43,169 nt of DNA from Alloascoidea africana (lineage: Eukaryota; Ascomycota; Alloascoideomycetes; Alloascoideales; Alloascoideaceae), in the NCBI GenBank assembly GCA_030581615.1, contig JAKTTT010000102.1, positions 1-43,169 on the forward strand. Reading direction: 5' to 3'. A program made the translations under genes and the position numbers. Below, piece by piece: positions 3,916 to 43,016 of the stretch; position 1 is the first letter of the stretch, and every line of letters begins with the position of its first letter. The notes under the pieces are model-generated. The model was not told the DNA's origin, did not search any database, and saw only the letters and a list, made by a program, of their open reading frames with translations.

Positions 3916-6900
3916 ATGTCTTCCACAGACGTTAAGGAGGATGAAAAGGTACCACCGTCATCAACTCGGGAAAGGTTCTTCTCTCATCTTCCCGATATCC
4001 AGAGATTCTTTTCAGAGACAAAAGAAAAAGAGTCTGGAGATGTAGTGGATTCCTTGTCAACACTTACAGGCTCTCGAGAAACACTACCTGGCTCTAAGAA
4101 CGCTTTGGATGGTGAAACTGCCCATGAACTTCCTCAGCATGTACCTGAGTCAATCCATGATCAATTGACTTCTCTTGAAGTAAGTTCAAATTACAGTTGC
4201 GTTCCAAAAAACGAATAATATACTAAAATGAGAATGTTTTAGGGAAGCAAGGCTTCTGGTAAGCAATCATTGTCTTCCAAAAATTCAAAAGGGAAAGAAG
4301 TGCAATTTCAAAGCAGCAAGTTGTCCGCATCTACTACATCCGTTTTAAGACTTCAAACAATCTCTGTCTCCAAAGAGAGCGATGTGAAGTATTTGGTGGA
4401 CCTGAGCGAAAACCTTCTTGCAGAATGCAGAAAATTGAGTTTCCTTGTCATGGAAAAGGAAAAGACTATCAGTTCTTACAAAGCCGAGGAGGTACGGTCA
4501 GTGCAAAGCATTCTTGCATTAGAGGAAAAGCTAAAGGAGTTGCAAATTGCAGAGGGTAAGTTTTGTTTTCCAGTAAATTGAACCCAGGTCTCTAACCACA
4601 AGCATAGATCAGTTTCGTATTGCAAATGTACAACTGGAGACTAAAATCCAAGCGATTAGAGCCGAATCCCTTGAACTAAAATCTAAGTTGAAGCAAACGG
4701 AAGATGATCCCGGAGGCTCAGGAAAAATCACGCTTGAAAGCCTACAGCTGAAAGAATCCGAGATAGTTGTAGAAACAGAATCCCTTGTTTCGCAACAATT
4801 GGAACTTCAAAAGCTCCAAAAACAGTTTGATGAGCTGTTTGAAGAAAATTCCTCGTTATACAGAAAACTCGAAGAGTTGCGGCAATTGGCTCTGGAACAA
4901 GAATCATTGATCCAGAGTGGAGCTTACGTTAACAATTTCCCAGATCATTCCAGTAAGTCCCAATTACAAGGAGATGGAGCTTTTCCCGAATTTCCAGACG
5001 ATTCAGCAAGAGACTATTCTCAAAATGTAGAGCCGAGCCCAGAGACTGCTTCAAGTCAAGAAAATGAGATTTCGAAACTTCGAAACGCACTCAGCAAAGA
5101 AAAGGAACAAAGGATGGAGCTTGAGAATTACGTATCCCAATTGGAGGAAGCATTCAATCCTGATGTTTATTCTATTCATTCCACTGTTCAGTTTACAAGA
5201 CCAGAATCGTTGAAAAAAGAGAGAGAACAACCTGAAAAGCCTCATCGTGATATGGATGAACTTATCAGTCCTTTCAGGACTTCTGAGGATCCTACAGATA
5301 TCAGACCTGAATCTCTGAACAAATTACCAAGCACTCCCAAGGAATTTAAACCGGTTGAAATGCCAGAGGAAAGTTCGCTGTTGCAAAGCTCAAAACGTAG
5401 GCTTTCATCTCTATTCTTTAGAGTTGCTGTTCCGACGTATTCAACCTCCACCAGTCCTGAAAGCCAAACTAAGAGCCCTTTGTTTTCTGTTTCTGAAGAT
5501 CCGCGATCACCACAAACCCCAGACTCCGATGTCGAATATTTTAGAAAGGCATCTCCTAGTTCTCCAGACCTATTAGAGTGTGGGGAATCTCCCAATCGTA
5601 TAACAACTGCTGAATTTGAGGAATTCGCCGCTTCAAACAATTATTTGACCTTGAAATACAATTCATGGCAAGATGCGGCTAAAATTATCAAAGTGGCAAA
5701 TGATCTTGGAATCCAAACACCAACAGAAGAACCACAAAGGTCGACTTCAGGAATTGAGAATCCGACAGAGAAACCAACACTGGAAGAATTGGAACAGAAA
5801 GCAGCTGGCATGGGATTTACTCTTGTTCCCACAGAAGATGCTAAGCACCTTTTGGGATCGCCTGTAGATGAATCGTTTAGTGATGCCGCAAGTTCGCTTG
5901 GACAGAGTGCAATACCCGCCAAGGACTCTGAACTCAGCTTGGAGGAACTAAAGTCACAGGCATCTATGCATGGTCAAACAGTTGTTCCAGTAGACGAATA
6001 TAACAGGTTGTCGCAAACTATTGAATCTCCAAGTATTAATTATCTTATCTCAAAAGGCGAAGAAATGGGTTATAAAATTATTCCTTGCTCTTCGTTTAAT
6101 CGTCTTGTTCAAGAAGCTTCTGTTCCTGACAAGAACTTCATCACAATGAAAGCCAAGGAAAGGAACTTGAGAGTGCTGGAGGAAGACGAGTACGCGGAAC
6201 TAACAACAAATGCCAACAATCCAGATATTGAAAGACTCAAGCAATTGGCCAACTCAAAAGGCTTTGTGATCCTGGAACAACAGGACCATGACCAGTTGCT
6301 GATGGACTTGAATGAACCAAACATTGATTCTCTTTCTTCCAAGGCCAAAACCCTCGGGTTCAGTGTAGTAGATTCTGCGCAATACTCTACATTGAAACAC
6401 AGCGTTGAGTCTCCAGACCTTAATTTTGTGATCCAGATTGCTTCTACAATAGGCCTTTCAGTCCTAGCCTCTACTAGACTGAAAGAACTTGAGGAAAAGG
6501 CGTCATCTCCAGATCCACAGTTTTTGTCAGAGAAAGCGGGCAAGCACGGCCTTTCAGTTCTGCCGCAATCAGAGCTGGACGGATTAAGGTCAATTGCTGA
6601 TTCCCCTGACACAGACTTTATCATTTCCAAGGCCAAAGATGTTGGCATGGTTGCCCTTGATAAGGATTCCCATCAGAAGTTAGTACAAAGAGCCAACGAG
6701 CCTTCAATCGATCAAATCCAAGAGAGTGCACGAAAGCTTGATTGGGTTGCAATACCGGATGGAGAATACCGCTCGATGGTTGCCAAAATTGAACATCCAG
6801 ATATCGAATATCTTGCTTCAAGTGCGGAAACTCTTGGATTGAAGACGATTGAGAAGGACAAGCACAACAAGCTGGTTGAGAATTTTGAAAAGCCTTCAAT

Positions 6901-9900
6901 AGAGTTTATTAAGGAAAAAGCGGATAGCATTGGCTATACTGTTCTTCCGAATGAAGAATACAGATCTCTCAATGATTCGGCTCATAAACCTAGCTTTTCA
7001 CATCTTGCTAAAAAGAGTGCAGACATAGGCGCTATTACTATTCCTAAGGAAGATTATGATAACCTAAAAGATAGTCTTGATAGCCCAAGCATTGAGTACA
7101 TCTTAGAAAAGGCCAAGTCCTATAGCTTTGTGGCTGTGCCAAAGGATGAATATGACACTCTGAACCAAAACCTAGCAGACCCTGGGCCCGAGTTTGTTTC
7201 TGAGAAAGCGAAAGACTATGGGCTTGTGGCTATTGATCAGAATGAGTACCACATCTTGCTTACCAAAACCAATACTCCTGATGCAGACCATATTGAAAAA
7301 GTTTCATCCAAACTTGGCTTGGTAGTAATGGAAAAACAAATACATGATAGGCTTTTGAGTCAACTTGAAGCTCCTACCGTCAATTACATCATGGAAAAGG
7401 CTAAACTAATGGGGTACAAATTGACTCCGCAGGAATTGCATGAGACAATGTCAAAGAAAGTGAACAATCCTGATATTCAATTTCTCGGAACCAAAGCTAA
7501 AGAATTGGGTTATGTAATTATTCCTGAAGAGTCTTATGAAGAACTTGAGAGGAAGGCCAACTCTCCAGGTGCTGAGCACCTTGAACAAAAGGCTGCTGCT
7601 GTGGGATTGGTTGTTCTCGAGAAAGATGTTCATGACTTGCTTGTCCAGAAAGCAGCGAATCCTACCCTGAATGATTTAATTCCGCTGGCGGAGAAAATCG
7701 GGTTTAATCTCATACCCAAAGATGAACATCAATACCTTATCACTTTGAGTGAAAATCCCAATAGAAATTTCTTAAGCGAAAAAGCAATTGACTTGGGCTT
7801 AAGAGTAATCCCCAATGACGAATATGATAATTTGCTTAAAGATGCCAATCATCCCGACACTGGCAAGCTTATTGGAAATGCTAGAAATGCAGGTTTTGCG
7901 CTAATTCCTCTTGAAAAACACAAGGACTACGTCAAAGTGTTTGAAAACTTGGATATTGATTTTATATCAAACAAAATTTCCACTCTGGGCTTGGTAATTG
8001 TAAAGAGAAGTGACCATGAAAGCTTGTTGTTGAGTTTTGAGAAACCCTCCATCGATTTTGTTAAGGATAAAGCCAGTCTGCTCGGATATGAGACTATTTC
8101 CAACGAGGACTATAAAACCATATTTATTCCAGCCTCTGAGCCAGATCCCGAATTTGTTTCTGAAAAAGCAACTGAACTTGGTCTAGTCACTTTGCCTAAA
8201 GAAGATTATCAAAGCCTACTGAAGAAAGCTACTGATCCTGATAAGGAGCATGTTACCAAAAAAGCGAGAGCTTTAGGTCTTGTTACCATGAATATGGATT
8301 CTGCGGAGTCTCTTGAGAAGAAAGCACACGACCCTGATCTTGATCATGTATTTGAGAAATCCAGAGGCCTAGGATACGAGCCAGTTGAAAAAGAGGTGTA
8401 CGAGAGCTTGGTCTCTAAAGCTTCCAATCCAGATGAAAAGTATCTAGCAGAAAAAGCATCAGAGTTGGGCTTGTCACTCCTACCCACAACGGTAAAAGAT
8501 TCGCTCTACCGAAGTGTTAATGAGCCATCGTTTGACGAACTCAATGACAAAGCAGGTCGAATTGGATTTGTAGTTATTTCAAAAGCTTCTCACGACGAAT
8601 TGGTGTATAAATTTGAACATCCAAGCATGGAGTACATATCCAAAGCTGCATCCGACAATGGGTTTATTACAATTTTGTTGTCTGAGTATGAAAATTTGCT
8701 AAAACAGGCCAACGAACCAAGTTTTGAGCATTTGAGTGTAAAAGCGACTGACAAAGGCTACCATCTTCTCACAGAGGATGAAAAAAATAGTCTGCTCAAT
8801 CCTAGCCTAGATTTTTTGAAAGCAAACGCAAAAAACTTGGGACATACAATACTACCCACAGATGTACACGACCATATAATCACGACAATTGCCAATCCGA
8901 ATGTCGAATTCCTATCTCAAAAAGCTGATTCTATCGGCCATATATTGGTTATCAAAGATGTTTATGAGGAGTTAAAGAATAAAGCAACATCTCCAAGCAT
9001 TGAATATTTAGCTGAAAAGGCTTCAGAACTTGGTTTAGCTTCCATTCCGAAGGATGATTACAACAGTCTTTCTTCTACATTCCATGATCCCTCAGAGGAG
9101 TTTCTGTTGGATAGGTGCAGGGCCAAAGGCAATACTGTTTTGCCACAAACTGAATATGACCGGCTGAAGGGAATTGAAAAGGATCCAAGCAATGCCTTCC
9201 TAAAGAGAAATGCCGAACATCATGGGTATCAGCTTGTTCCCCAAGAGGATTATCATAACCTTATTTCTTTATCCCAGAATCCCTCAGAACAATTCATCAA
9301 GGAAAATGCCGAAAAGCATGGTCAGCTTCTTATTACAAAAGATGAATACAACGATATTCTCAAAAAGGCTAATGAGCCTGAATTAGAGCATATTTCCTCG
9401 AAAGCTGCAAGCCTTGGGTTTGTTACTATCGCCAAGGAGGTTCACAATATATTAGTGAAGAAAGCAGAACAGCCGGATGCTGCGCATCTTGCGGAAAAGG
9501 CTAGAGATATTGGGTATGCATCCATACCTCGGGAAAAATACGACGACTTGGTTCGAAACTCTGAAGCTCCCGATTATGATTTTCTTTCTGCAAAAGCTGA
9601 TTCTCTGGGATTTGTGGTTGTGCTCAAAACTGACTATCAGAAGGTGAAGGACTTAGTTGATAATCCTTCAATCGAGTATCTCGTAGACAAGTCAAATCAT
9701 TTGGGCCATACTGTACTTCCGAAAGAGGACTACAACAAACTTTTGAAGAAGATAGAAAAACCGGAAATTCCTTTTGCGATCCAGATTGCACACCTTGTTG
9801 GATATGAGGCTCTGCCAAAGGAAGACTACCTTGCCCTAACAGAGCCTTCCTTGGAATTCCTATCCGAAAAGGCTAGCAGGTATAATCATGTTGTGGTGCC

Positions 9901-12900
9901 TAAAGAAGAGCATGACCAAAATTTAAGACTAATCACGGAACCTGATTCAAACTACATCACCGAGAAAGCAAAGGCGATCGGGCTTTTTTCGATGCCTAAA
10001 GACGAGTACGATTTACTAGTTAAAAAAGAACGTGAACCCACTCCCGATGATCTGATTGAAAGATCACGGACAATCGGTTACCATGCGCTTCCCAAGTCAA
10101 CCTATGATACGATTGTTGGAAAATTAGAGAACCCGCCTGCAAGCTATATTCATGAAAAAGCAGCCGAATTAGATCTAGTTGTTAATCCCAAAGAGGAATA
10201 CGAAAAGCTATCTGAGATGGTCAATAATCCTACTGAAGATTATATTGTTGAGAAAGCCTTGAACCTGGATTTGGTTCCTGTTTCTCGGGCAACCTACAAC
10301 GAGCTTTTACAAAAGGCTCATGAGCCAAACCTAAATGACATTGAAAAAGCTGCTGATTCTAGGGGCCACAAAGTTTTGAATAAAGAGGATTATGAAGAAC
10401 TTGAGAGGAAAGCAAACAATCCAAACTTGGAGGATCTAACCAATGCCTCTAATTCTTTAGGTTATGTTTTGGTAACCAGGCCTGAGTTTGAAAAACTGGT
10501 TGAGAACTCCCATGGTTTATCTGTGGATGACTTGAAAGAGAAAGCTACACGCCTAGGCTATGTCTTGCTTCTTAAAGAAGAGTTGGATAAGCCAAGCATC
10601 AATTATCTTGTTGAGAAAGCCAGATTATTAGACTATGTTCTAACTCCTCAGTCTCAGTATGATCAGTTGACTTCCAACTATTCGGGACCAAGCGATGAAT
10701 TTATTGATAGACACGCTAGAAAACGAGGTAGCATTGTCATTCCCAATTCAGAGTATGACCAACTTGTTAAGCGTTTTGAAAGTCCTGAAGACTTCATAAA
10801 GGAAAATGCAAAAGCTCACGGGTTTATTGTTGTTCCTGAAACAGAATATGAACAGCTGAAAAAGATGTCGGAAAATCCTACGAATGACTTGATGAAACAA
10901 GTAGCAGAATCTCGTGGATTTTGCATTGTGCTTAAGCGAGATTTTGAGGAACTGGTGAAGCTTTCGGAATCTCCAAGTAAAGAGTTTATAGCTCTGCATG
11001 CTGGACCTTGCGGTCTTGTTGCTGTTCAAGAAGAGGAATACCAGAGACTTCTAAGTGATGTTGAAAACCCTACTGAGAGTTTTATTAGGGAAAAGGCAAA
11101 CTTGCTTGGTCTCGTTGTCATCCTCAAGGCAGATCATAGTGATTTACTGAAACAAATAAATGACCCCAGCATAGAATATTTATCGGAAAAAGCCACTAAC
11201 AAAGGTTTCGTTTCTCTTAGTCAAGAAGAATATGATAACCTACAGACAAAGGCATCAAATCCTAATATTGAGGTCATCGCCGAAAAAGCCAAGTCACTCG
11301 GCTATGAAACTGTCCCCAAAGACAAATACAACGAATTGAGCAAAAATCGTTTCGTACCAAGTGAAGATCTAATAATCAGCTCTGCTCCTGAGTTTGGATT
11401 GATAGCAATACCAAAAGATTCCTACAACCAGCTATTAAAAGATGCCAGTGAGCCTGATCTTGGACGTATTGCTGAGCGAGCAGCCATACTAGGGTTTGTA
11501 ATGTCTTCAAAAGATCAGTATGATGAATTATTGATGAAGGCGAATGACCCTGATTTGGAATATCTTGCTAGTAAAGCGAGACAATTAGGCTTTGAGCTTT
11601 CTCCTGCTCAAGATAGTGACGTTGCTACCAAATCTTCGGAAGTGAACTTGGAGCAGATTTCACAGAATGCCTCCTCGTTAGGATATCTCGTGGTGCCACA
11701 AGCAGAACAAAACATGCTTTTGAGACAGGCCAATGAACCCTCATTTGAATATATTCAAGAGAAAGCTTCTTCTCTAGGATTTATTCTTGTATCAAATGGG
11801 ACTCGAGATCTTGCAACAGACGAGTTTGATATTGTAAAGCAAGCCAACATTCTTGGGTATGTGGCTTTGCCAAGGGAAGGTCATGATATGTTGAAAAAGC
11901 AAGCTATAGAACCGGATCTTCATCATATTGCTGATAGAGCAACCACCCTAGGATATGAATTGTTGCCAAAGCCCAAGTTTGAAGAATTGATAAGAAATTC
12001 TTCGAATCCAAGCGTCCTATTTATCAAAGAAAAGGCACAGGAAATGGGCTTCATTGTTATTCCTGTAGCAGAGTACGATACCTTGGTAAAGGAGTCCAAT
12101 CCAAATAAAGAAAATCTGCAAACTAAAGCTAAAGAGCTGGGGTCCATTATTCTAACGGAAAATGAATATAGAGAATTGGTCTCAATATGTGAAAGCCCAA
12201 CTCTTGATTTTGTTTGTGAAAAAGCCAAACTCTTTGAGCACATTACAATCCCATGCTCGGTTTACAATGAACTAGTATCAGCCTCAAAAGGACCTTCCAA
12301 AGAGCAGGAAGATCCCAGGCCTAGAGAAAAGCTACCTACCCCACGAGAGACTGTTGATGAAATGGTTTCCATTCCTAAAACTGAATTTGATTCTCTTCAC
12401 CAGAAGATAATTGATCCTAGTCTTGATGCGATTAAAGAGTTTGCAGAAAGAAAGGGATTGCATCTATTACCCCAAGATGAATACAATAAAGCCATTTTGA
12501 CTTTAAATAATGTTGAGAAGGAAGAATACATCACTGAAAAGGCAAGATCTTTTGGACTTGTGGTTCTTCCTTGCAGTCAATTTGAGAAGTTGACAAAATC
12601 AGCAAAATCGCCCACCTTTGATCCAATGCTTGAAACTGTCAAACCTTCTGAAGGATTGTTTGCATCCGATGTGGATGAAAAACCTTCCAACAGAAGACCG
12701 TCAACCCCGTTCATTGCCGGAAATGATCCGGATTGCTCTGATAGCATTACTATATCAAGGGATCGTTACCAAGAGCTGATTAGCAAAGCTGATCCTTCTC
12801 GGTACAAAGCACCTACTGAAAAAGAGTCACCTTTAGAGCAAGAGAAGCTACCAACAAAAGGTTCAGCCACTTCGGAAACCAATTCTATCGACCAAGAGAA

Positions 12901-15709
12901 AACACTTGGAAAGCAAAAGGAAGGCAAGACAGTACCAAGAGATATTCAAGCGGAACCTAAAATTGAAAACCCTTCAGATAGCGAAAGCATACGTCTACCG
13001 ATTTCCGAATACAACGAGCTTTGCAGACTTGCATATGAACCGAGTATTAATGAGCTAAAGGCCAGATTAGACGGCTTCGCCTTGCAAGTTATTTCAACTG
13101 AAACGATTGAAGACTTGAACCGACGTCTTCAAAATCCAACAGAATCAGAATTAACAAAATTGAATGCGAAATTAGGCCTTGTCACAATTCCAATAGCAGA
13201 TCATGAACAAATGATAAAGTCCTTGAAGGAACCAGATATAGGAATTTTGGAAAAGAGAGCTAGGGATTTGGGGCTTGTTTTGCTAACAATCGCCCGTCTT
13301 GAAGAATTGAATGAAGCAGTATCTCGGAGACCTAAGGAGGAAGCCGAATCTTGCGAAAATTGTAGAGAAACAGAAAACCGACCAATTACAAAGGCTGAAG
13401 TTTATGTTGGCGCAAAAGAGTTTGATCTGATTATTCTCACTAAAGAAGAATACCGAAGTCTAGTTGCCAAAACATTTGTTGAGCCTGGTAGCCTTTCTAG
13501 AGGCAGTGATGTACTCAAGAAACCTGAGGCCGGAAATGTGTCTGAGGCTGATAATGCATCCCTCAAAGATAAAAATTTGGGATACAAGAGCGGTAATACT
13601 GTTTTTCCTTTTTCTGCTCCACCAGAAGAAGCCGGTGACCCTCAAGCCAAAGAGCCGACTACGAGAGATGGCTTAGCTCAAACTACTTACTCTTTTGATA
13701 ATAACAGCCCTACTAGTGCTTCAAGCGCTCCCATATCTTCATCCCTGGAAACAGATCAGACCAAGAACCCGAGAACACCCGAAAAGATTAATATTAGGAT
13801 TTCGGAGGAAGCTATTACTAGGGATCCTTCTGGCGTATTGGAATTATGCTTGACGAAGGTGCAGATAATTGAATGTGTCACCATTCTTGGAATGAATGTG
13901 ACTTCTTCTAATGACTTTTCCAAAGTTTCGTTAGAGGATTTGTCTCGGGTAGCTTCAAACCATGGCTTGGTAGTTTGCTCTACCGAAGAGCTAGAGAGAT
14001 TAAAAAAATTGTCTTCAAGTGGTGGCATTTCAAGAGACAAGCAATCATCAGATTGCGCTTCAAAACCTGGCTTGTCTCTACTAGATGGTGATATCACTGA
14101 TCTCATAAGCTCCTCAAACACAGATGACAATGTTATAGAGCGGATTGTTAAAGAATTTACTCTTCAGAATAGCTTGATGATTGTGCCTTTGGATTATCAA
14201 CCTGATTTAACAGAACCAGAGTTGGCGAAACAAGCTGAAAAGTTTAGTAAGGCACTGATATCACTTGATGAATTAGGTAGGCTCCAAGCAGCAGGAACAA
14301 CATCAAGCGATTCTATGGCAAATCCTAGACAACCCTCTCGACAGTTTTCGGTTACCCGTGAGGAGTTAATAGAGTATGCCTCAGCTTTTGGTCTTGTTGT
14401 AAACTCTATGGACGGTGCTGGACTCCAAAATATTGAAGAAAGCACATTAATACATCACGACAAGTCCACCGGCACGGTTTTAATTTCTAATACCTCCCCT
14501 GAATACCTGGCTAACAAAGACCCTGTACCAAGGACAAAAGAAGATTTAATTAGTCTTGCCCAGAAGTTTGATATGATTGTAATCACAAAACAAGAGTATC
14601 AGAGACTAATTGATACTGCAAAAGTTATTGTCCACAAAGCCGACAACGAGATCTCCACCGACACTAGCGTTCTTAACGAAGAATTTATCCTGAAGGCCCC
14701 AACCTTTGGGCTAGTTGCAGTACCAAAGAATGAATTTGAAAAGTTGTTGAACGATTCCCGCGAATCTGATTCGAATGCTGCGCAGGCCCCTTTGAATACT
14801 TTAACAGAAGTTCCAGACAAGACCGTGTCAACAGATGCCAGTTCCAAAAGACCTTCTACAAGAGAAATGTTGCATGATCAGGAACAAAATGTTCCAACCT
14901 TAGAACCCCAAATTAATTACGACTACAGCAATACCAGTTACTGTGCTTCCTTTGTAAGTACTGTTTCTCATGTCAATGCACCCTCAAATATTGGGTCGGT
15001 GAATCCACATGGAAATGAAGGAAGCAGCGCTATTCAACCTACATCTTCAAATATCAGTGTGAATACCAATGCGTCTTTCTCAGACCAGAGCATTATCCAA
15101 GCAGTAACACAAACCGTTATTGGTGAGTATCTCTATAAATCTTATAGAAAGGTTAATGGGATGGCTGAGAACCGTCACAAACGATACTTTTGGATTCATC
15201 CTTATACGATGACGCTCTACTGGTCAGAAGCAAACCTCTCCCCGGGCTTGCCTTCTGGAGAAAAGACCAGAGCAGCTACAATTTTAGGTGTTTCTACAAT
15301 CCCAAATCCTTCCCCGTCTCCTGGATTGTGGAGTAAAAGCATTATTGTAAAAACTCAAGGCAAAGACATCAAGATAACTTGCCCAACAAGGCAGAGACAT
15401 AACATTTGGAACAACACCTTCAAGTTTTTATTACAGAGAAAAGCAGAAGGGACCAATTTGTCTGATTTGATGTCGCCTATCAATAACAGCTTGGGAGAAT
15501 TAGCAGAAACTTCTGGTTCAAGGCTTGATGCTACTCGCTCACGACTATCTTCAGAATCGTTCGCTTCTAATAGAATATCTACGGTCAGAAACAGCTTCAG
15601 TTCTACGAGCCGAGAGAATGCTGTTAATCGTGTTGAAAGGTCCATGAGAAGAGCCTCCTTGCGTCGAATTTCTACAATTTGGAAAGACGACAAAAAGTCC
15701 TTGCAGTAA
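3916..15709 (+). CDS. NUM1: Num1-like cortical anchor protein (giant, three exons)
   Basis: Num1 tethers dynein and mitochondria to the plasma membrane for spindle positioning and organelle inheritance. Exons are 3916-4179, 4243-4555 and 4608-15709. The introns are 63 and 52 nt, both with GTAAGT donors and TACTAAA or CTAAC branch sites, and splicing keeps frame. The product is about 3,892 aa. Residues about 100-400 hold the coiled-coil N-terminal region. From about residue 580 to 2860 comes a tandem array with a period near 32 residues, of the type NPSIEYLxEKAxxLGxxVIPKDEYDxLxxKA, followed by spaced, degenerate units to about residue 3570. A PH domain lies at about 3696-3808 (starts IGEYLYKSYRKV, contains KRYFWIHPYTMTLYW), followed by a basic Ser/Arg-rich tail. 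S. cerevisiae Num1 is about 2,750 aa with 64-residue repeats, so this protein is much longer and its unit is about half that size. Confidence 0.93.
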
Positions 15710-26762: not shown

Positions 26763-27158
26763 TTACAATTCCTGGGAAGCCTTGCCCTTTGCGCTCTTCT
26801 TTGGCAACAGGTTTTGGTGAATGTTTGGTAGAACACCACCCTGGGCAATTGTAACATGGCCCAAAAGCTTATTCAGTTCTTCGTCGTTTCTGATGGCCAG
26901 TTGTAAATGTCGGGGAATGATACGTGTTTTCTTATTGTCTCTGGCGGCATTACCGGCCAGCTCCAGAATCTCAGCAGCGAGATACTCCAAGACGGAGGTC
27001 AGATAGACGGGAGCACCAGCACCAACTCTCTGGGCGTAGTTTCCCTTTCTCAAAAGTCTGTGAACACGACCAACTGGGAAAGTAAGACCAGCTTTGGATG
27101 ATCGAGATTGTGTGGCCTTTGCAGCGGCGGCTTTTCCTCCAGATTTTCCTCCAGACAT
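26763..27158 (-). CDS. HTA1: Histone H2A
   Basis: Core nucleosome histone, 131 aa. The start is the ATG at 27158 ([20 protein letters not shown]); the in-frame extension to 27317 is promoter sequence. The histone fold [20 protein letters not shown] is intact, as are the acidic-patch residues, and the C-terminus ends in SQEL, the Mec1/Tel1 phosphorylation site that makes fungal H2A the H2A.X equivalent. It has no intron. It is divergent from H2B across 403 bp. Confidence 0.97.
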
Positions 27159-27561
27159 TACGATAGTATTGTAGTAGTAGTGGTGATAGAGATGTGAGCA
27201 GAGTGTGGTTTGCAGATGAAGATTCGAAAAGTCCAGGAGGGCCTGTCTTTTTATATTTCCGCGAGAACAGGGAACTGTCACAATTGAGGACACAAAAAAC
27301 CCCTCATTAGTCATCAATTTCTGAAACTAGCTGCTCCCAATAGTGACACCCAGGGTTTATGGGTGTACATTCCAAAGTCCACTATTGAGGACACAGTATC
27401 CACCCCATTCTGCCACTAACAGGGGACAACTCCGAGAAAACGAGTCCTCAATAGTGTACATCCATTCTCCTGGAGATCTGGAAAGTGCAATATAAAGTAG
27501 CTGCTTGTTCCCCCTAAATTCCTTATCCAAAGCATTCAACTCCTACTACAGAAATTTAACA
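27159..27561. promoter_or_regulatory. Divergent histone H2A-H2B promoter with repeated motif
   Basis: The motif CACTATTGAGGACAC recurs: CACAATTGAGGACAC at 27279-27293, an exact copy at 27380-27394, and an inverted copy gaGTCCTCAATAGTG at 27442-27456. A half-site CAATAGTG lies at 27338-27345. TATA-like boxes face each gene: TTATATTT (about 27251, for H2A) and AATATAAAG (about 27489, for H2B). The motif differs from the S. cerevisiae Spt10 UAS as I know it. It is probably the element that coordinates the pair. Confidence 0.7.
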
Positions 27562-27966
27562 ATGGCCCCAAAGACTGCTGAAAAGAAACCTGCCTCCAAG
27601 GCTCCCGCCGAGAAGAAGCCTTCTACCGCCGGAAAGAAGACTGCCGCCCCTGTCGCTGACAAGAAGAAGAGAACCAAGACCAGAAAGGAAACCTACTCCT
27701 CCTACATCTACAAGGTCCTCAAGCAGACGCATCCAGACACTGGTATCACCACAAAGGCCATGTCCATCATGAACTCGTTCGTGAACGACATTTTTGAGCG
27801 CATTGCCACTGAAGCCTCCAAGCTTGCCGCCTACAACAAGAAATCTACCATCTCTTCCAGGGAGATCCAGACCGCCGTTCGTCTGATCTTGCCAGGAGAA
27901 TTAGCCAAACACGCTGTTTCTGAAGGAACAAGAGCCGTTACCAAATACACCAACTCTAGCGAGTAA
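27562..27966 (+). CDS. HTB1: Histone H2B
   Basis: Core nucleosome histone, 134 aa. The start is the ATG at 27562 ([20 protein letters not shown]), preceded by AACA; the upstream in-frame extension is 5' UTR. The globular domain [20 protein letters not shown] through [20 protein letters not shown] is near-invariant, with the C-terminal Lys ubiquitination context (AVTKYTNSS). The conserved Leu in RLILPG is coded by CTG, evidence for the standard genetic code. It has no intron. It is convergent with PRE3. Confidence 0.97.
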
Positions 27967-28186: not shown

Positions 28187-29304
28187 CTAAGCATCCTGAT
28201 ACTCGTCAGGGAAAAACACCAGTCTCTCTATGCCAGATTGGGTCAAAACCACCATTCTAATGACGCCGCCCGAACTGCCATCCCACTTTATAGCCTGCGA
28301 GAGAGCTGTTTAATTGACCGTTAGTACTGGCCACGCTTTCAAAAATTTCATAGGTATTCTATCTTACCAGTTTTCATGAAGCTGATCGTCTGCTCCTTTG
28401 TCATGTTCTCCTTAAAGTTCTTGTTGCAATATCCATAAATGAACTGAACATCTGTTAGCCAAGTATGAACAACCACCATCTTCCAAAGTAATACATACAG
28501 CAGATCCACTTCCTGCAATAGCATAACTTTGCTTATGAACACTTCCACCTAGTGGTATACTGTATACTTCGCCCTTGGTCTTATCATCATAACCAGCAAC
28601 AATAATACCAGCACTAAGGTTATCCTTGTTGGAATAGCACAACTCTTTGAAAATGGAAGCAGCAATTTTGGGGGTTGGTGGGCCATACTGCTGGGTGTAT
28701 AAATTTAAATGATATTGAACAATATCAGCAACTGCTTGGGTATCAGCAGCAGAACCAGAACTAACATCATCTTAGAAGATGTACAAGTAGAAGCAAATTC
28801 AAAGCCAAGAACGTACCGACCTAGATGTTGGTTAGTTTATGCTCGCAGATTCGTACAACAAGAATACTCACAACACCAGATTTTATCGTGAACTTGCGTC
28901 AACTTATCAGTGACACTGTGACAATTGTCAGAAACACAAACAACAAATCCAATTCGTTTTTCGACTTGACCAATTCATACCGATTCGCGATATAGGCTCC
29001 AGTAGTGGTCCGGCTAAAAAATACAGCTGTTAGAATGCCTTTCTTAACACAATGGCATAATTGGCATACCTATCAGCTCCTAATATCACTCCTTCATTGA
29101 ATTTCACCGCCATGCTTTCCATTAAAGAATTAGAGCTGTTCAATTCAATCTCTTGCGATATAAATTGATCTATTGAGAGCATACATTGACGTCCCCAGGC
29201 TTAACAATCATTAGTATAACGCCAATTGAAACAATACTATATTCTCCACCATACCTGACCTCGCCTTTCTTCAAAGCGTTGATGTCTACAGATATGCTTT
29301 CCAT
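28187..29304 (-). CDS. PRE3: 20S proteasome beta1 subunit Pre3 (nine exons)
   Basis: Pre3 is the caspase-like catalytic subunit of the 20S proteasome. The only model that restores the family sequence has nine exons: 29255-29304, 29185-29199, 29070-29114, 28981-29013, 28872-28915, 28817-28820, 28499-28760, 28368-28443 and 28187-28305. The sum is 648 nt, or 215 aa, the length of S. cerevisiae Pre3. All eight introns are 51-70 nt; donors are GTATG/GTAAG/GTGAG/GTACG and branch sites are mostly CTAAC/CTAAT. Exon 2 (15 nt) codes LGTS with catalytic Thr1 (residue 20); exon 6 is a 4-nt microexon completing CCR of the WCCRSGSAADTQ block. Downstream blocks AGIIVAGYDDKTKGEVYSIP and SLSQ-type AIKWDGSSGGVIRMVVL are intact. 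It is convergent with H2B. Confidence 0.9.
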
Positions 29305-34086: not shown

Positions 34087-36380
34087 ATGATTGCATCAAG
34101 AGTTAAGCGGTTAAAGAGATCGCAGAAAAATCAAAGCGACTCGCAGAAGGTGAGATCTGTTTGTTTGAACATGGCGAGAGTTTTAAGCGACTGACACCAC
34201 TTTCTTAGACTGTTTTTTTTCTTGAGCCAGATGAGGAGGACAATAAAGAGAAGGACGAAGCATCAAATGATGAAGATTTCGCACTTGGAGTTGAAGGAGT
34301 AGTCAAAAATGATATAAATGTGCCCATGGTTAGCTTGTATGGGGGAGGAGAGCCGACAGAAAATGTTGAGTTTCGTTGGAACAAATACAACGAAGCATGG
34401 AGGAACCAAGAGAACCGAATAAAACAGTTTCTCAACTCATCATCCCAAAAACTAAACGAAGATATAGAAGCATTTATCAAAACAGAAGCTGAAGAAGAAG
34501 ACAATAGAAATCTCCTAGATGCCGCGTTAGTCTTTCCTGGACCCAACTTTGCGAATCATTTTAGACTTTTTTCCCAAATAGCGTCACAATTGGAAAGCAA
34601 CAAGAGTATTTACACTACTAGGCTCAATTCTAAAGAGTGTGGGACCCTGAAACAAGCACTTAAAAAGATAATTATCGACATTGTTGAGAAACAAGCTGAG
34701 GTTCCAGGTTTCGTCGATGATGATGAAGACGACGAAGATCTAGTTGATGGACACTTTACCGGCCGGTATGATAAAATGCTCCGCTTTGACTACTCTATCC
34801 TGTCGGATTGGTGCAACTCCAAAATTCGAGACAAGCCTGAAAACAAAAGCGACCTCAGAGTCGTTTTGATCATTGAGGATGCCGACACTTTTGACACGTT
34901 TACTTTATCTAGTCTCTTAAGATTAACCCACTCCTATCTATGTGAAATTCCATTCAAATTGGTATTGGGAATCTCCAACTCTTTGGATATGTTTCAGGAA
35001 AAGCTTCCAAAGGCTTGTATAAGGCTTATACAGGGCGTTGAATTTAGACCAAAGACAAGTGAACAACTCATCGCTGAGATTAGCGAGGCCACCATCTTTT
35101 CAAATGACCCAAAGACATTGTACTTGGGTCCTCGACTGGTTGAGTCTATAGGTGTCAGATACCGCACAAGCATAACGAGTTTAGAGGCTTTTGTCTCTTC
35201 GCTAAAATACGCCTACATGACACACTTTTTTTCTAGTCCCCTAAGCATACTTTCTGAGTTCGATTCTGAGGAGGAATTAACGCTGATAATAAATCAGTAC
35301 TTTAAAAAATTCCACTTGTCTGTTTTAAGAATGCAACCGTCATTCAAGAAATATATTGAGAGAAAAGTGCAAGAGAGAGATTTCTCACATCTACAAGATC
35401 TCCTTGAAGACGATGCATACCTGTTGAATGTTTTACCTTCAACAATCAGCGAATTCCATTCATACATGAAACAGATTCTTGGAGCAATTGATGTGATTGA
35501 TGCACTTCAATCATTTAGCCCAGGCATGACTCAAAAGAAATCAAAAATGGAGATCTATTCACTTGCTCTAAATAATAAACTGCTGGGTCATATTTATATG
35601 AAAGAGCTAATGGACTGCTTTGGAAATCTAAATGTTGAAGAGTTTTCCAGTCTTTTAGAGTTTTTCAAAATCTCGGAAGTTAATGAAGTAGCTTTAGATT
35701 TATATTCACGGATAACATCTGGATTCGAAGCAGAACTAGATGAGGCTTTGAAATTGGCCACGACAGCTAACACTGGAAAATCTACTTATAGAGGAACTTT
35801 TCCAAGTGTGCTCCTTCGAATTTGTGGATTAATTAACGGCGTTTTTCAAGAAATATTCAAGCCGTATGAGGGACAATTGTTTCATGAGATGTTTATTTTG
35901 AATAATATTGCCTTGGATCAGGTAACATTTGCTCCCAGATACCGAGCAGTTCTGTTGGATTCATTGGAAAGTCCATCAGACTATCTTGGGCATTCAAAAA
36001 AGGATCTGACAACTTTGACATCTCTGAATCCGATGATTTCTCAAATGTATGCTCTGTATAGAGATGCTGGATCAATTGTAAACCTTTACGACTGGTTAAC
36101 CGCTTTTAAAGATGGACTGCCTATGGACAAAATGATGGCAGATCTGGCAGATGACTTGAAAATGCAATTAGAATCTGAGAATGAAGTAAACCAGGAGGAG
36201 ACCGAAGAGTTGTTGTCACTAGTAGAATCAGACGAAAAAGAGGAAAGGGAAGAGAAATGGGAAAAGATGGTTCTTGCTTGGTTCTTGAAAAGGATTGCAG
36301 AAATGAGGTTTATGGGTTTAATAAAAGATTGTAAAAGGAAATATGAATGTGTTGAAAAAGTTGCTTGGAAAGGACTATGA
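34087..36380 (+). CDS. ORC3: Origin recognition complex subunit 3
   Basis: Orc3 is part of the six-subunit complex that marks replication origins and loads MCM. Exons are 34087-34149 and 34209-36380; the intron is 59 nt (GTGAGA donor, ACTGACA branch, TTCTTAG), giving 744 aa. Exon 1 supplies a basic N-terminus (MIASRVKRLKRSQKNQSDSQ); without it the open frame has no early ATG. An AAA-like core is suggested by RVVLIIEDADTFDTFTLSSL and LVLGISNSLDMF, without a Walker A motif, as expected for Orc3. Acidic linkers occur (DDDEDDEDLVDG). The C-terminal winged-helix region ends in GLIKDCKRKYECVEKVAWKG, matching the conserved Orc3 ending. Confidence 0.93.
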
Positions 36381-36419
36381 CAGCAGTTGCATTAGAGTAG
36401 TCCTAAATTTAATGATGAA

Positions 36420-37199
36420 TAAGTGTTACTAGAAGGTTTCTTAACTTGGCGCCACTACTGGTCTCCGACAAGGACCATCGATTTTTGGGTGCATTCTGGA
36501 AAACCATCCACTAGAAACTAGGAACAAAGCTATCGTTTAGCACTACAAATCATCCCGGCACAGACGGACAAACAGAAATTGTAAATAAAATCCTGAGATA
36601 GACTTTGCGAGCGTTTGTGTAGAATGACTTTAGTAGCTAGGTTTTAAATCTTGGAATGGCGGAGTTTGCTTATAACGCTAGCTTTCAGAAATCTATTGGT
36701 TGTTCTCCTTTTTCGCAGACCTTGGCTACAACCCTGAGCATCCTGGTTCCCATTCAACATGGAGTTTGGAAAATGTGTCAGCTAGAGCTAAAGACTTTGG
36801 TGAGAAGATACAGGCGATCCTGAGATTTGTGCACGATTCGATGGTAAATGCTCAGGGAGAGCAAGAGGAACAACAACAACTAAGAAACATCGTGTTATAA
36901 ACAAGCAACATTTCAAACTCTACAATAAGCAGTTGTCATATCTTAAACAACAATCACGTACAGAGGCAGAAGCAAAATTTAGGATTAACGAAATGTCAGC
37001 TATTCTGGGTACTGACAAAGAAAATGAAAAAAATGATTTATTTATGTTTCTTGGACAGATTGTGATCCTACATTGGTTACACCCGTGCATGTCAGACTAT
37101 TTGCAGAAGCCAATGATGTTTTGTTCAAGAATTTGATGGAGCAATGGAAATCACTTGGTGCTACTGAGAACGAGGAGCCTGAAGCTGGCGAGGGGAGAA
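36420..37199 (+). mobile_element. Fossil Ty3/gypsy retrotransposon, integrase region
   Basis: Translations across this segment resemble the Ty3/gypsy integrase core: a VSDKDHRF-like block, then HPGTDGQTE, then AEFAYN, followed by a weaker C-terminal extension. No reverse transcriptase, protease or Gag remains upstream, because ORC3 ends at 36380. The segment is clearly broken at several points and looks old. A polypurine tract (GGCGAGGGGAGAA, ending about 37199) closes it, as expected just before a 3' LTR. Confidence 0.8.
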
Positions 37200-37565
37200 T
37201 GTAAGTAACATGCTATTTTCGGTAATATTAACCCGAGATGCCTGTTTAGCATAATTTCTTCTTTTGGACATCCTCGCCTATCATGTTCCTATCTTATTAT
37301 CTTTGGTTATACTGAATTTCCTTTTTTCATTCCTTGAGCTAAGCTCATATAGATATTTAGGCTATACAACGAGGATATAAATCCCATTTCCTTAATAATA
37401 ATTAGCTTTCTTCTTCATTTCAAATCCGCCCCAATTGATTCTTTTCACAAGGTGCAAGAGCCCTAACTTAGCCAGATCTTCTGGATGCGATGTTACTTCG
37501 GAATTTGCAATCATGTGGCACGAAGTGTTTGTTTGAAAGAAAACCTGCACCATGATAGCAATTTC
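37200..37565 (+). mobile_element. Probable 3' LTR remnant of the gypsy fossil
   Basis: Sequence starting TGTAAGTAACATG directly follows the purine tract, as a 3' LTR should. A TATA-like GATATAAATCCC lies at about 37373. The far end cannot be fixed, because a different solo LTR lies at 37571. No second copy exists in the window to confirm the boundaries. Confidence 0.45.
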
Positions 37566-41813: not shown

Positions 41814-43016
41814 TCATTGACACAGCATATTATAAACATTCCACTCCATCTTGGAGAATTCTCTGAAACGACTTTTCACCTCTTCCGGCTCTGTGTTCCA
41901 CAGCACGCCAATAACCTTGGACAGGCTTTGGTGACTGATCAGTTGTAGCAGGGAACTGGCGCCCATGAACCCCTTGGACTGCTTCAAAAAGTCGGTGGCC
42001 GTTAATGTGGTATCTCGGTATTGCTGCTGGAGATAATCCGCTTCCTGCAAACTAACAATACCTTTCTCAACCGCGGCAGCCAGAAAGTGGGAGTCTACTA
42101 CCATTGCAAGATACTTTCTGTACAGAAAGAAGCCGTTGAGAGGGTCTTTAAGGCTGTCCCTGGTTTTAGCGCTCTTTTTGGGTTTAGCCCTCTTCTTGGC
42201 TTTAGAATCCTTCTTGGTTTGCTCTCTCCTCCGTTTGATCGCGATGCTATTGTGGACTTCTAGCAAGAACCACGGGTCCAGTCGCTTTTCTGCGAGGGAA
42301 TCAAGCGTAGTGACTGGCTCGGTGGTAAAATAGGCGGAGCAAACTTTGAGCTTGTAAACTCCGTTCTCGAGCTTCACCACGCTCTTTGTGCCATTCCTGC
42401 TACATGCTGTCTCGCAGTGTTGGAGAGACAGTTGGTATAGCGCCGCTTGCAGAAGGTCCTCTGGTATGCTCTTCTGAGCGGCTAAGGCCCGAATATCCCT
42501 TAATCTCGGTTGAGAAATTTCTTGCATCTCAATCCATTCGAAGGATTCTTTGCGCATTCCAAAGGAAAGCGAGATTTGGGGGTCGGTGGAGACACTATAA
42601 TGGGTGCTACTCTGCAAATTGGGGGTTTGGGTAAGAGGCATGTCGAATGCTGTAGGTTGAGGTTGAGGTTGAGGTTGATGTTGAGGTTGAGGTTGATGTT
42701 GAGGTTGAGGTTGATGTTGAAATTGTGGTTGTAATTGTATTTGTGGTTGTAATTGTATTTGTGATTGTAATTGTGTTTGTGGTTGTGGTAGTGGTAGTGG
42801 TAGTGGTAGTTGTAGTGATGGCTCTGAAGGAAGCCAGGGCTCATAGTTTCCAATGTCCCCAAGTTGGATGGAGACTTCGGGACAGTAAACAGCAGGATTT
42901 CCAGTTTGTTCAAAATGGTCGTCTTCCGTCTGGTTCAACTGGAGATAGTCCCAAAAGGTGGGGCCTTGCTCGGCTTCAATGCGAGTTTGGTTCCTGATGA
43001 GTTGCTCGGAATTCAT
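41814..43016 (-). CDS. Mating-type-like transcription factor (alpha-box/HMG-like)
   Basis: 400 aa, intronless. Residues about 65-121 are a Leu/Pro/Gln tract grading into HQPQPQ repeats, encoded by a minisatellite at about 42655-42830. A basic segment follows (about 261-285, KRRREQTKKDSKAKKRAKPK). The C-terminus then reads LNGFFLYRKYLAMVV (about 293-307) and, after about 55 residues, LSKVIGVLWNTEPEEVKSRF and MEWNVYNML. The two halves fit the start and end of a MATalpha1 alpha box (NGFxxFRSYY ... LSxxLxxLWxxDP), and also resemble an HMG box (NAFxLYR), with a long insertion in between. MATalpha1 is my preferred reading; an HMG-box regulator is the alternative. A TATA box is at about 43122-43132 upstream. 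Confidence 0.55.
   Translation of the reverse strand: MNSEQLIRNQTRIEAEQGPTFWDYLQLNQTEDDHFEQTGNPAVYCPEVSIQLGDIGNYEPWLPSEPSLQLPLPLPLPQPQTQLQSQIQLQPQIQLQPQFQHQPQPQHQPQPQHQPQPQPQPTAFDMPLTQTPNLQSSTHYSVSTDPQISLSFGMRKESFEWIEMQEISQPRLRDIRALAAQKSIPEDLLQAALYQLSLQHCETACSRNGTKSVVKLENGVYKLKVCSAYFTTEPVTTLDSLAEKRLDPWFLLEVHNSIAIKRRREQTKKDSKAKKRAKPKKSAKTRDSLKDPLNGFFLYRKYLAMVVDSHFLAAAVEKGIVSLQEADYLQQQYRDTTLTATDFLKQSKGFMGASSLLQLISHQSLSKVIGVLWNTEPEEVKSRFREFSKMEWNVYNMLCQ
42655..42830. repeat. Q/P-coding minisatellite inside the mating-type-like gene
   Basis: On the plus strand, units of GAGGTTGAGGTTGATGTT and GGTTGTAATTGTATTTGT-like repeats grade into GGTAGTGGTAGT repeats. On the coding (minus) strand they give HQPQPQ, QLQPQI and PLPLPL. 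Length polymorphism between strains is likely. The opposite frames are also open because of the 3-bp multiple period, but they are not genes. Confidence 0.85.

Follow-up and report, generated by a model that had tools for sequence, protein, structure and literature searches.

The window analysed here, the whole 43 kb of one contig in a 23.2-Mb draft assembly of 138 contigs, carries PRE3, the gene of the proteasome β1 subunit, and this gene raises the question of whether a coding exon of only four nucleotides can be part of its mRNA. PRE3 occupies 1118 bp of the minus strand (29304-28187) and was read by spliced translation as nine exons of 50, 15, 45, 33, 44, 4, 262, 76 and 119 nt (exons 1 to 9). 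These make up a coding sequence of 648 nt including the stop codon, i.e. 215 amino acids, which bears out the nine exons in a 1.1-kb gene announced in a preliminary description of this DNA. Exons 1 (29255-29304), 3 (29070-29114), 4 (28981-29013) and 8 (28368-28443) were placed by spliced translation and alignment, and exon 9 (28187-28305), which contains the stop codon, by spliced translation. Exon 5 (28872-28915) was placed by enumeration, translation and alignment and ends with TGG TGT T before GTGAGT; exon 7 (28499-28760), placed by translation and alignment, begins with TTCTGG after TTAG. Between them lie intron 5 (51 nt, 28821-28871, GTGAGT...ATCTAG), exon 6 (GTCG, 28817-28820) and intron 6 (56 nt, 28761-28816, GTACGT...TGTTAG). 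On the coding strand, AACTAACC...ATCTAG leads up to exon 6 and a GTACGT donor comes directly after it; the exon has the coordinates, strand and motifs previously assigned to it. The six remaining introns of the gene measure 55-70 nt each.

The identity of the gene was assessed with phmmer and Pfam. Residues 1-179 gave an ungapped alignment with S. cerevisiae Pre3, and the nine-exon product matched PF00227 with 171.2 bits. The phmmer query already included the 4-nt exon, so that this search is no test of the exon; indeed, S. cerevisiae Pre3 was the best match whether the query carried Arg45 or Asp45. Both β1 hallmarks, LGTSIMAV and WCCRSG, are present in the nine-exon translation, the Arg of the second one (Arg45) being conditional on the use of exon 6. 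The Thr1 motif together with Arg45 would mark the product as proteasome β1, with predicted N-terminal processing. No second copy of PRE3 was found in a search of the genome, where two weaker loci matched PUP1 and PRE2 better, and no relative was found in the bacterial and archaeal genomes searched. A weak match on a viral contig (L048; 46% over 37 residues) appeared unrelated by eye and was rejected.

The need for exon 6 was examined at the level of reading frame and protein sequence. Counting from Thr1, its four bases provide the last two of the codon for Cys44 (T|GT) and the first two of that for Arg45 (CG|T). We enumerated the parses of this region that use GT or GC donors, AG acceptors and at most two introns, each of at least 40 nt. 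Fifteen of the 64 parses were open, seven of these with a single intron (e.g. a 101-nt intron at 28871-28771), and the earlier assertion that an intron with a GTATTC donor is the only in-frame alternative therefore had to be abandoned. Two of the 15 open parses kept the length of the protein, namely the one with the 4-nt exon and the one with the GTATTC intron, and a single parse of the 64, that with the 4-nt exon, restored WCCRSGSAADT. Skipping of exon 6 shifted the frame and led to a stop after 80 codons, with a product ending in WCFLVLLLIPKQLLILFNII, and retention of either intron 5 or intron 6 caused a premature stop in translation.

In the genomic sequence, the end of exon 5 runs on as TGG TGT TGT GAG, and AGT precedes TCT GGT at exon 7. 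Under any splice-site grammar, a single length-preserving intron makes codon 45 AGT, GGT, GAT or GAG (Ser, Gly, Asp or Glu), never a codon for Arg; Arg45 must therefore come from an extra exon or be lost. The preliminary description was thus right in stating that exon 6 is needed both for the frame, which its skipping shifts, and for the Arg of WCCRSGSAADT. As expected of an ultra-short internal microexon, the exon is required for both the frame and a conserved motif, and it has spliceosomal introns with canonical ends on both sides, though their sites score low. In cDNA, the junction of exon 5, GTCG and exon 7 would read TGGTGTTGTCGTTCTGG, and that made from the GTATTC donor TGGTGTTGTGATTCTGG. 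At the protein level, the expected tryptic peptides are IWCCR and SGSAADTQAVADIVQYHLNLYTQQYGPPTPK, cleavage at this position requiring Arg at residue 45.

The β1 subunit has an acidic, caspase-like specificity. Arg45 is described as the mark of the β1 S1 pocket in a passage of PMC11494509, one sentence of which gives the P1 preference of β1 as basic, seemingly swapped with that of β2. Arg45 of the β1 pocket is also named for the Trichomonas proteasome in a passage of PMC11452676, and an excerpt of PMC8700164 reports Arg45Leu in the immunosubunit β1i. The conservation of Arg45 is taken here from such literature passages rather than from a broad β1 alignment.

To evaluate the splice sites, we aligned the 14 proteasome genes of this genome to S. 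cerevisiae proteins, with GT-AG as the sole splice rule; identities ranged from 57 to 89%. The 29 protein-anchored introns were freed of the disputed PRE3 and mis-modelled PRE1 cases, and PRE1 was re-added as GC-AG, giving a set of 28. G was present at donor position +5 in 28/28 of these introns, and a branch site of the type YTRAY was picked 9-27 nt from the 3' end in all 28, with matrices that had been seeded with a YTAAY-like pattern. An enlarged set of 49 contained 21 further introns, selected by hand out of 70 rows for their coding support and branch site, while the donors were visible. All 21 have G+5, so that the resulting 49/49 is biased and 28/28 is the figure to be used. In a donor-blind run, G+5 was found in 11/11, 17/23, 26/41 and 41/68 introns as coding support fell, some of the exceptions being shifted copies of anchored introns (in PUP1, PUP2 and PRE6). 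A passage of PMC10581693, covering more than 200 Saccharomycotina, reports limited variation at donor +5 and A<->U switches at +4.

Measured against these sets, the introns around exon 6 have the expected elements, though not strong ones. G+5 is present in both donors, GTGAGT (1/28 anchored introns, 3/49 in the enlarged set) and GTACGT (0/28 and 1/49), and absent from the rival GTATTC. The branch site claimed for the acceptor of exon 6 was indeed found, as AACTAAC 10 nt before the 3' end of intron 5, with a score at least equal to that of 25 of the 49 introns. The acceptor of intron 5 is poor, two of the 49 introns being equally low, and in a leave-one-out analysis of the 28-intron set this acceptor and both donors ranked under all 28. 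Intron 6 has a weak branch-like TTCTAAG and no YTRAY site; its acceptor is common to the rival intron. As whole introns, introns 5 and 6 scored 7.27 and 7.28, compared with a training minimum of 9.23 in the 49 introns, an in-sample value.

The most serious alternative is that a single intron of 107 nt (28867-28761, minus strand), recovered by alignment, enumeration and splice scoring, is removed from the GTATTC donor, so that β1 carries Asp45 and GTCG is a chance resemblance within the intron. Such an intron would preserve frame and length in one event, and it did well in several of the contests. It was chosen by the aligner working without splice-site context and was narrowly ahead with the 28-intron matrix, by 0.7 nats (71.3 vs 70.6 for the 4-nt exon). 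With matrices from the 22 proteasome introns outside PRE3, one of two runs favoured Asp45 (pseudocount 0.5), the other putting the microexon ahead by 0.31 (pseudocount 1.0). With 43 non-PRE3 introns, a deciding set that includes the 21 hand-picked ones, every one with G+5, the nine-exon path led over the best path devoid of exon 6 at each of three intron costs, by 7.56 nats at 7.0, by 5.16 at 9.4 and by 3.56 at 11.0. Exons of 4 nt are, however, very rare a priori, a penalty that the cost set on introns does not fully contain.

Other observations argue against the 107-nt intron. Its donor is as poor as had been claimed, scoring 0.77 while the training minimum is 3.0, and lacks the G+5 found in 28/28 anchored introns. 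The predicted change from Arg to Asp reverses the charge at the residue that marks the β1 S1 pocket, and the Asp form scored 168.5 bits against PF00227, compared with 171.2 bits for the Arg form. Furthermore, the succession AACTAAC-ATCTAG-GTCG-GTACGT would be left as a coincidence. The likelihood of such a coincidence was estimated from 20,000 dinucleotide shuffles of the interior of the 107-nt interval, in which the first 6 and last 22 nt were fixed, the first donor had to be either that closing exon 5 or the rival one, and exons of 1-30 nt were accepted. Any exon of that size allowed restoration of WCCRSGSAADT in 3/20,000 shuffles; none of the 20,000 did so with G+5 at both donors, and none with a splice score equal to or above the observed one. 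Taken together, these data indicate that PRE3 very probably does contain GTCG (28820-28817) as a genuine internal exon, one carried by its main mRNA, and that the Asp45 form is unlikely.

A narrow splice grammar can create artefactual microexons, and this is why the argument based on residue 45 matters. With GT as the only donor allowed, the aligner produced a 23-nt exon in PRE1 at three intron costs; this exon was false, since admission of GC donors replaced it with a clean GC-AG intron. The latter lies in the β4 gene (L018, G000:C13, ~1387-1495 in the locus), measures 109 nt and reads ACAG|GCAAGT...TTTTAG|TGCAATTT. The PRE1 artefact is a warning that too narrow a splice grammar can yield spurious microexons. 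A 21-nt exon in SCL1 was likewise rejected: it appeared in the GT-only setting at the lowest cost, 4.0, and was gone at 7.0 and 9.4. When GC donors were admitted and this aligner was run at costs of 7.0 and 9.4, internal exons of up to 30 nt were absent from all 13 other proteasome subunits and numbered two in PRE3, whose layout the GC donors left unchanged.

We also considered the possibility that the sequence around GTCG is a nested stwintron, or else a ratchet for recursive splicing in which the exon has zero length, instead of a true 4-nt exon. The GT that directly follows the acceptor (CTAG|GTCGGT) does resemble a ratchet point, and stwintrons occur in fungi, according to a passage of PMC12403724. 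Yet, a zero-length exon would yield the frameshifted product of exon skipping, none of 578 nested two-step parses gave WCCRSGSAADT, and introns 5 and 6 are separate, with complete ends 4 nt apart, as opposed to the interrupted arrangement that defines a stwintron. We therefore hold this reading to be extremely unlikely. Just as improbable is that the PRE3 copy is non-functional or wrongly assembled at this point. In favour of this, there is a single draft assembly, in 138 contigs; against it, no second PRE3 was found, the rest of the exons show open frames and high conservation, and an insert of 56 nt with GT-AG ends, lying between GTCG and TTCTGG, cannot be put down to a simple base error. 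Least credible of all is the single 101-nt intron 28871-28771 (donor GTGAGT, acceptor TAAG, giving WCYDVSSGSAADT), which was the pick of a self-trained gene finder that made no use of protein evidence, but which adds two residues, loses Cys44 and Arg45, has a branch score of -2.01 (under all 49 introns), lowers the Pfam score from 171.2 to 159.2 bits and reaches a total of 63.4, compared with 70.6 and 71.3 for the two parses above.

That ab initio finder, limited to introns of 130 nt or less and with usable, partly contaminated splice matrices, settled on this 101-nt intron (WCYDVSSG) rather than on the 4-nt exon or the GTATTC donor. If the 4-nt exon is confirmed, this outcome is a warning that gene finders will misannotate genes like PRE3.

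With the 4-nt exon taken as the preferred reading, its splicing can be rationalized by intron definition. Since the introns of PRE3 are short (51 and 56 nt around exon 6, 55-70 nt for the others), the natural reading is that each would be recognized as a unit and removed sequentially, which would make recognition across the exon unnecessary. Introns 5 and 6 are unlikely to be processed together; they would rather be removed in succession, the first excision leaving an ordinary intron. We would favour an order in which intron 6 goes first, because an exon junction complex deposited on a fresh junction may hinder a donor located only 4 nt beyond it, and the genome encodes Mago (a homologue at G000:C42:174117-174793, matched in four pieces). 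The core of this complex is thus probably retained. Mago is a core exon junction complex protein kept in some budding yeasts (PMC6351623), and recursive splicing at junctions that have just formed is repressed by the complex (PMC6224609). As to its origin, exon 6 probably arose through the arrival of a second intron at a distance of 4 nt from one already present, within a motif that has little tolerance for change.

Ultra-short exons, though readily overlooked, are already known from other organisms, and the 4-nt exon of PRE3 is an addition to them. According to a passage of PMC12940212, CYP621A of Fusarium has a 1-nt exon covered by RNA reads in two species. The two cases are alike in being fungal, in having been deduced from out-of-phase exons within a conserved motif and in that the exon restores this motif; they differ in that CYP621A has a 1-nt, RNA-confirmed exon in a filamentous fungus, whereas that of PRE3, predicted from the DNA, measures 4 nt and belongs to a yeast-like genome. 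Arabidopsis APC11 has a constitutive exon of 1 nt, for which the authors argue, in a passage of PMC4674806, in favour of intron definition with stepwise removal, citing potato invertase, whose second intron is removed before the first. PRE3 shares with APC11 an ultra-short exon that is not a multiple of three and the proposed sequential, intron-defined removal, though APC11 is a plant gene and was tested experimentally. Human MPC1 also has a microexon of 4 nt, not a multiple of three, and its constitutive inclusion has been shown (passage of PMC9929638), whereas inclusion in PRE3 is deduced from the genomic DNA. Intron definition is the likelier route for PRE3, in contrast with MPC1, because both flanking introns are of about 50 nt. 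The microexon of Xlr2 in Trichoderma virens is, like that of PRE3, found in a fungal coding gene, but its inclusion is regulated by glucose, according to an excerpt of PMC11121469. Finally, introns 5 and 6 resemble spliceosomal twin introns in being two neighbouring intervening sequences of a fungal gene, but in twin introns, as defined in PMC12403724, a splice element of one intron is interrupted by the other, whereas those of PRE3 are separate.

The preliminary description had considered a 4-nt exon to be remarkable in a budding yeast. The second part of this statement holds to the extent that the 57-89% identity of the subunits to those of S. cerevisiae makes a budding yeast the likely source; the first has to be tempered, as exons of 1 and 4 nt have been published for plants, human and Fusarium. 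No 4-nt exon of a budding yeast was mentioned in the accessible text of the matches listed for literature on microexons in yeast, Saccharomycotina or fungal genomes, a search that covered mostly papers outside subscription.

PRE3 is an essential gene in S. cerevisiae. If the exon is confirmed, a yeast-like spliceosome would be able to splice in 4 nt in an essential gene, with a microexon that supplies two of the three codon bases of the residue marking the β1 pocket, and this pair of short introns could offer a simple way to probe the handling of small exons by intron definition.

PRE3 has a second microexon, exon 2 (29185-29199, minus strand; CCTGGGGACGTCAAT), whose bases complete a Ser codon, specify Leu, Gly(-1), Thr1 and Ser2, and begin the codon of Ile3. 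The claim that these 15 nt carry the codon of the catalytic Thr was verified, this codon being ACG. The 5' region could be parsed in 331 ways, 41 of them open and in frame, and a single parse, with the 15-nt exon 2, gave GTSIMAVKF; the exon was used in alignments with splice-site scores as well as in one that did without them. Exon 2 can be skipped in frame, with a loss of Leu-Gly-Thr1-Ser-Ile that includes the catalytic Thr. In intron 2 (29115-29184), an alternative CAG acceptor is present 21 nt upstream and would add seven residues, in frame, after Ile3 of mature β1.

Both microexons encode parts of the active site: skipping of exon 2 drops Gly(-1)-Thr1, and an in-frame bypass of exon 6 through the donor 4 nt downstream turns Arg45 into Asp45. 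This raised the possibility that PRE3 splicing acts as a switch on the proteasome through microexon inclusion, which we regard as very unlikely. If it did, changed inclusion could make β1 catalytically dead or altered in specificity, or could lower its amount through frameshifted transcripts.

PRE3 is also an outlier in intron density, with 8 introns compared with 0-4 in the 13 other proteasome genes of the genome. Elsewhere in the window, a gene at 34087-37204, which we take to be ORC3-like, had its 3' part split by the gene finder into several short exons, one of them of 15 nt, and may be worth checking for microexons. At 3916-15709, the gene finder predicted a protein of more than 3,800 residues with, by eye, many diverged repeats. 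A single-exon protein with a glutamine/proline-rich stretch is encoded at 41814-43016; its HMG-box match is below threshold (21.6 bits for a cut-off of 25.4), and it is possibly a mating-type-like regulator. Adjoining PRE3 and SFI1, a divergent histone pair occupies 26763-27966 and consists of H2A, identified by a Pfam match, and of an H2B-like open reading frame recognized by eye.
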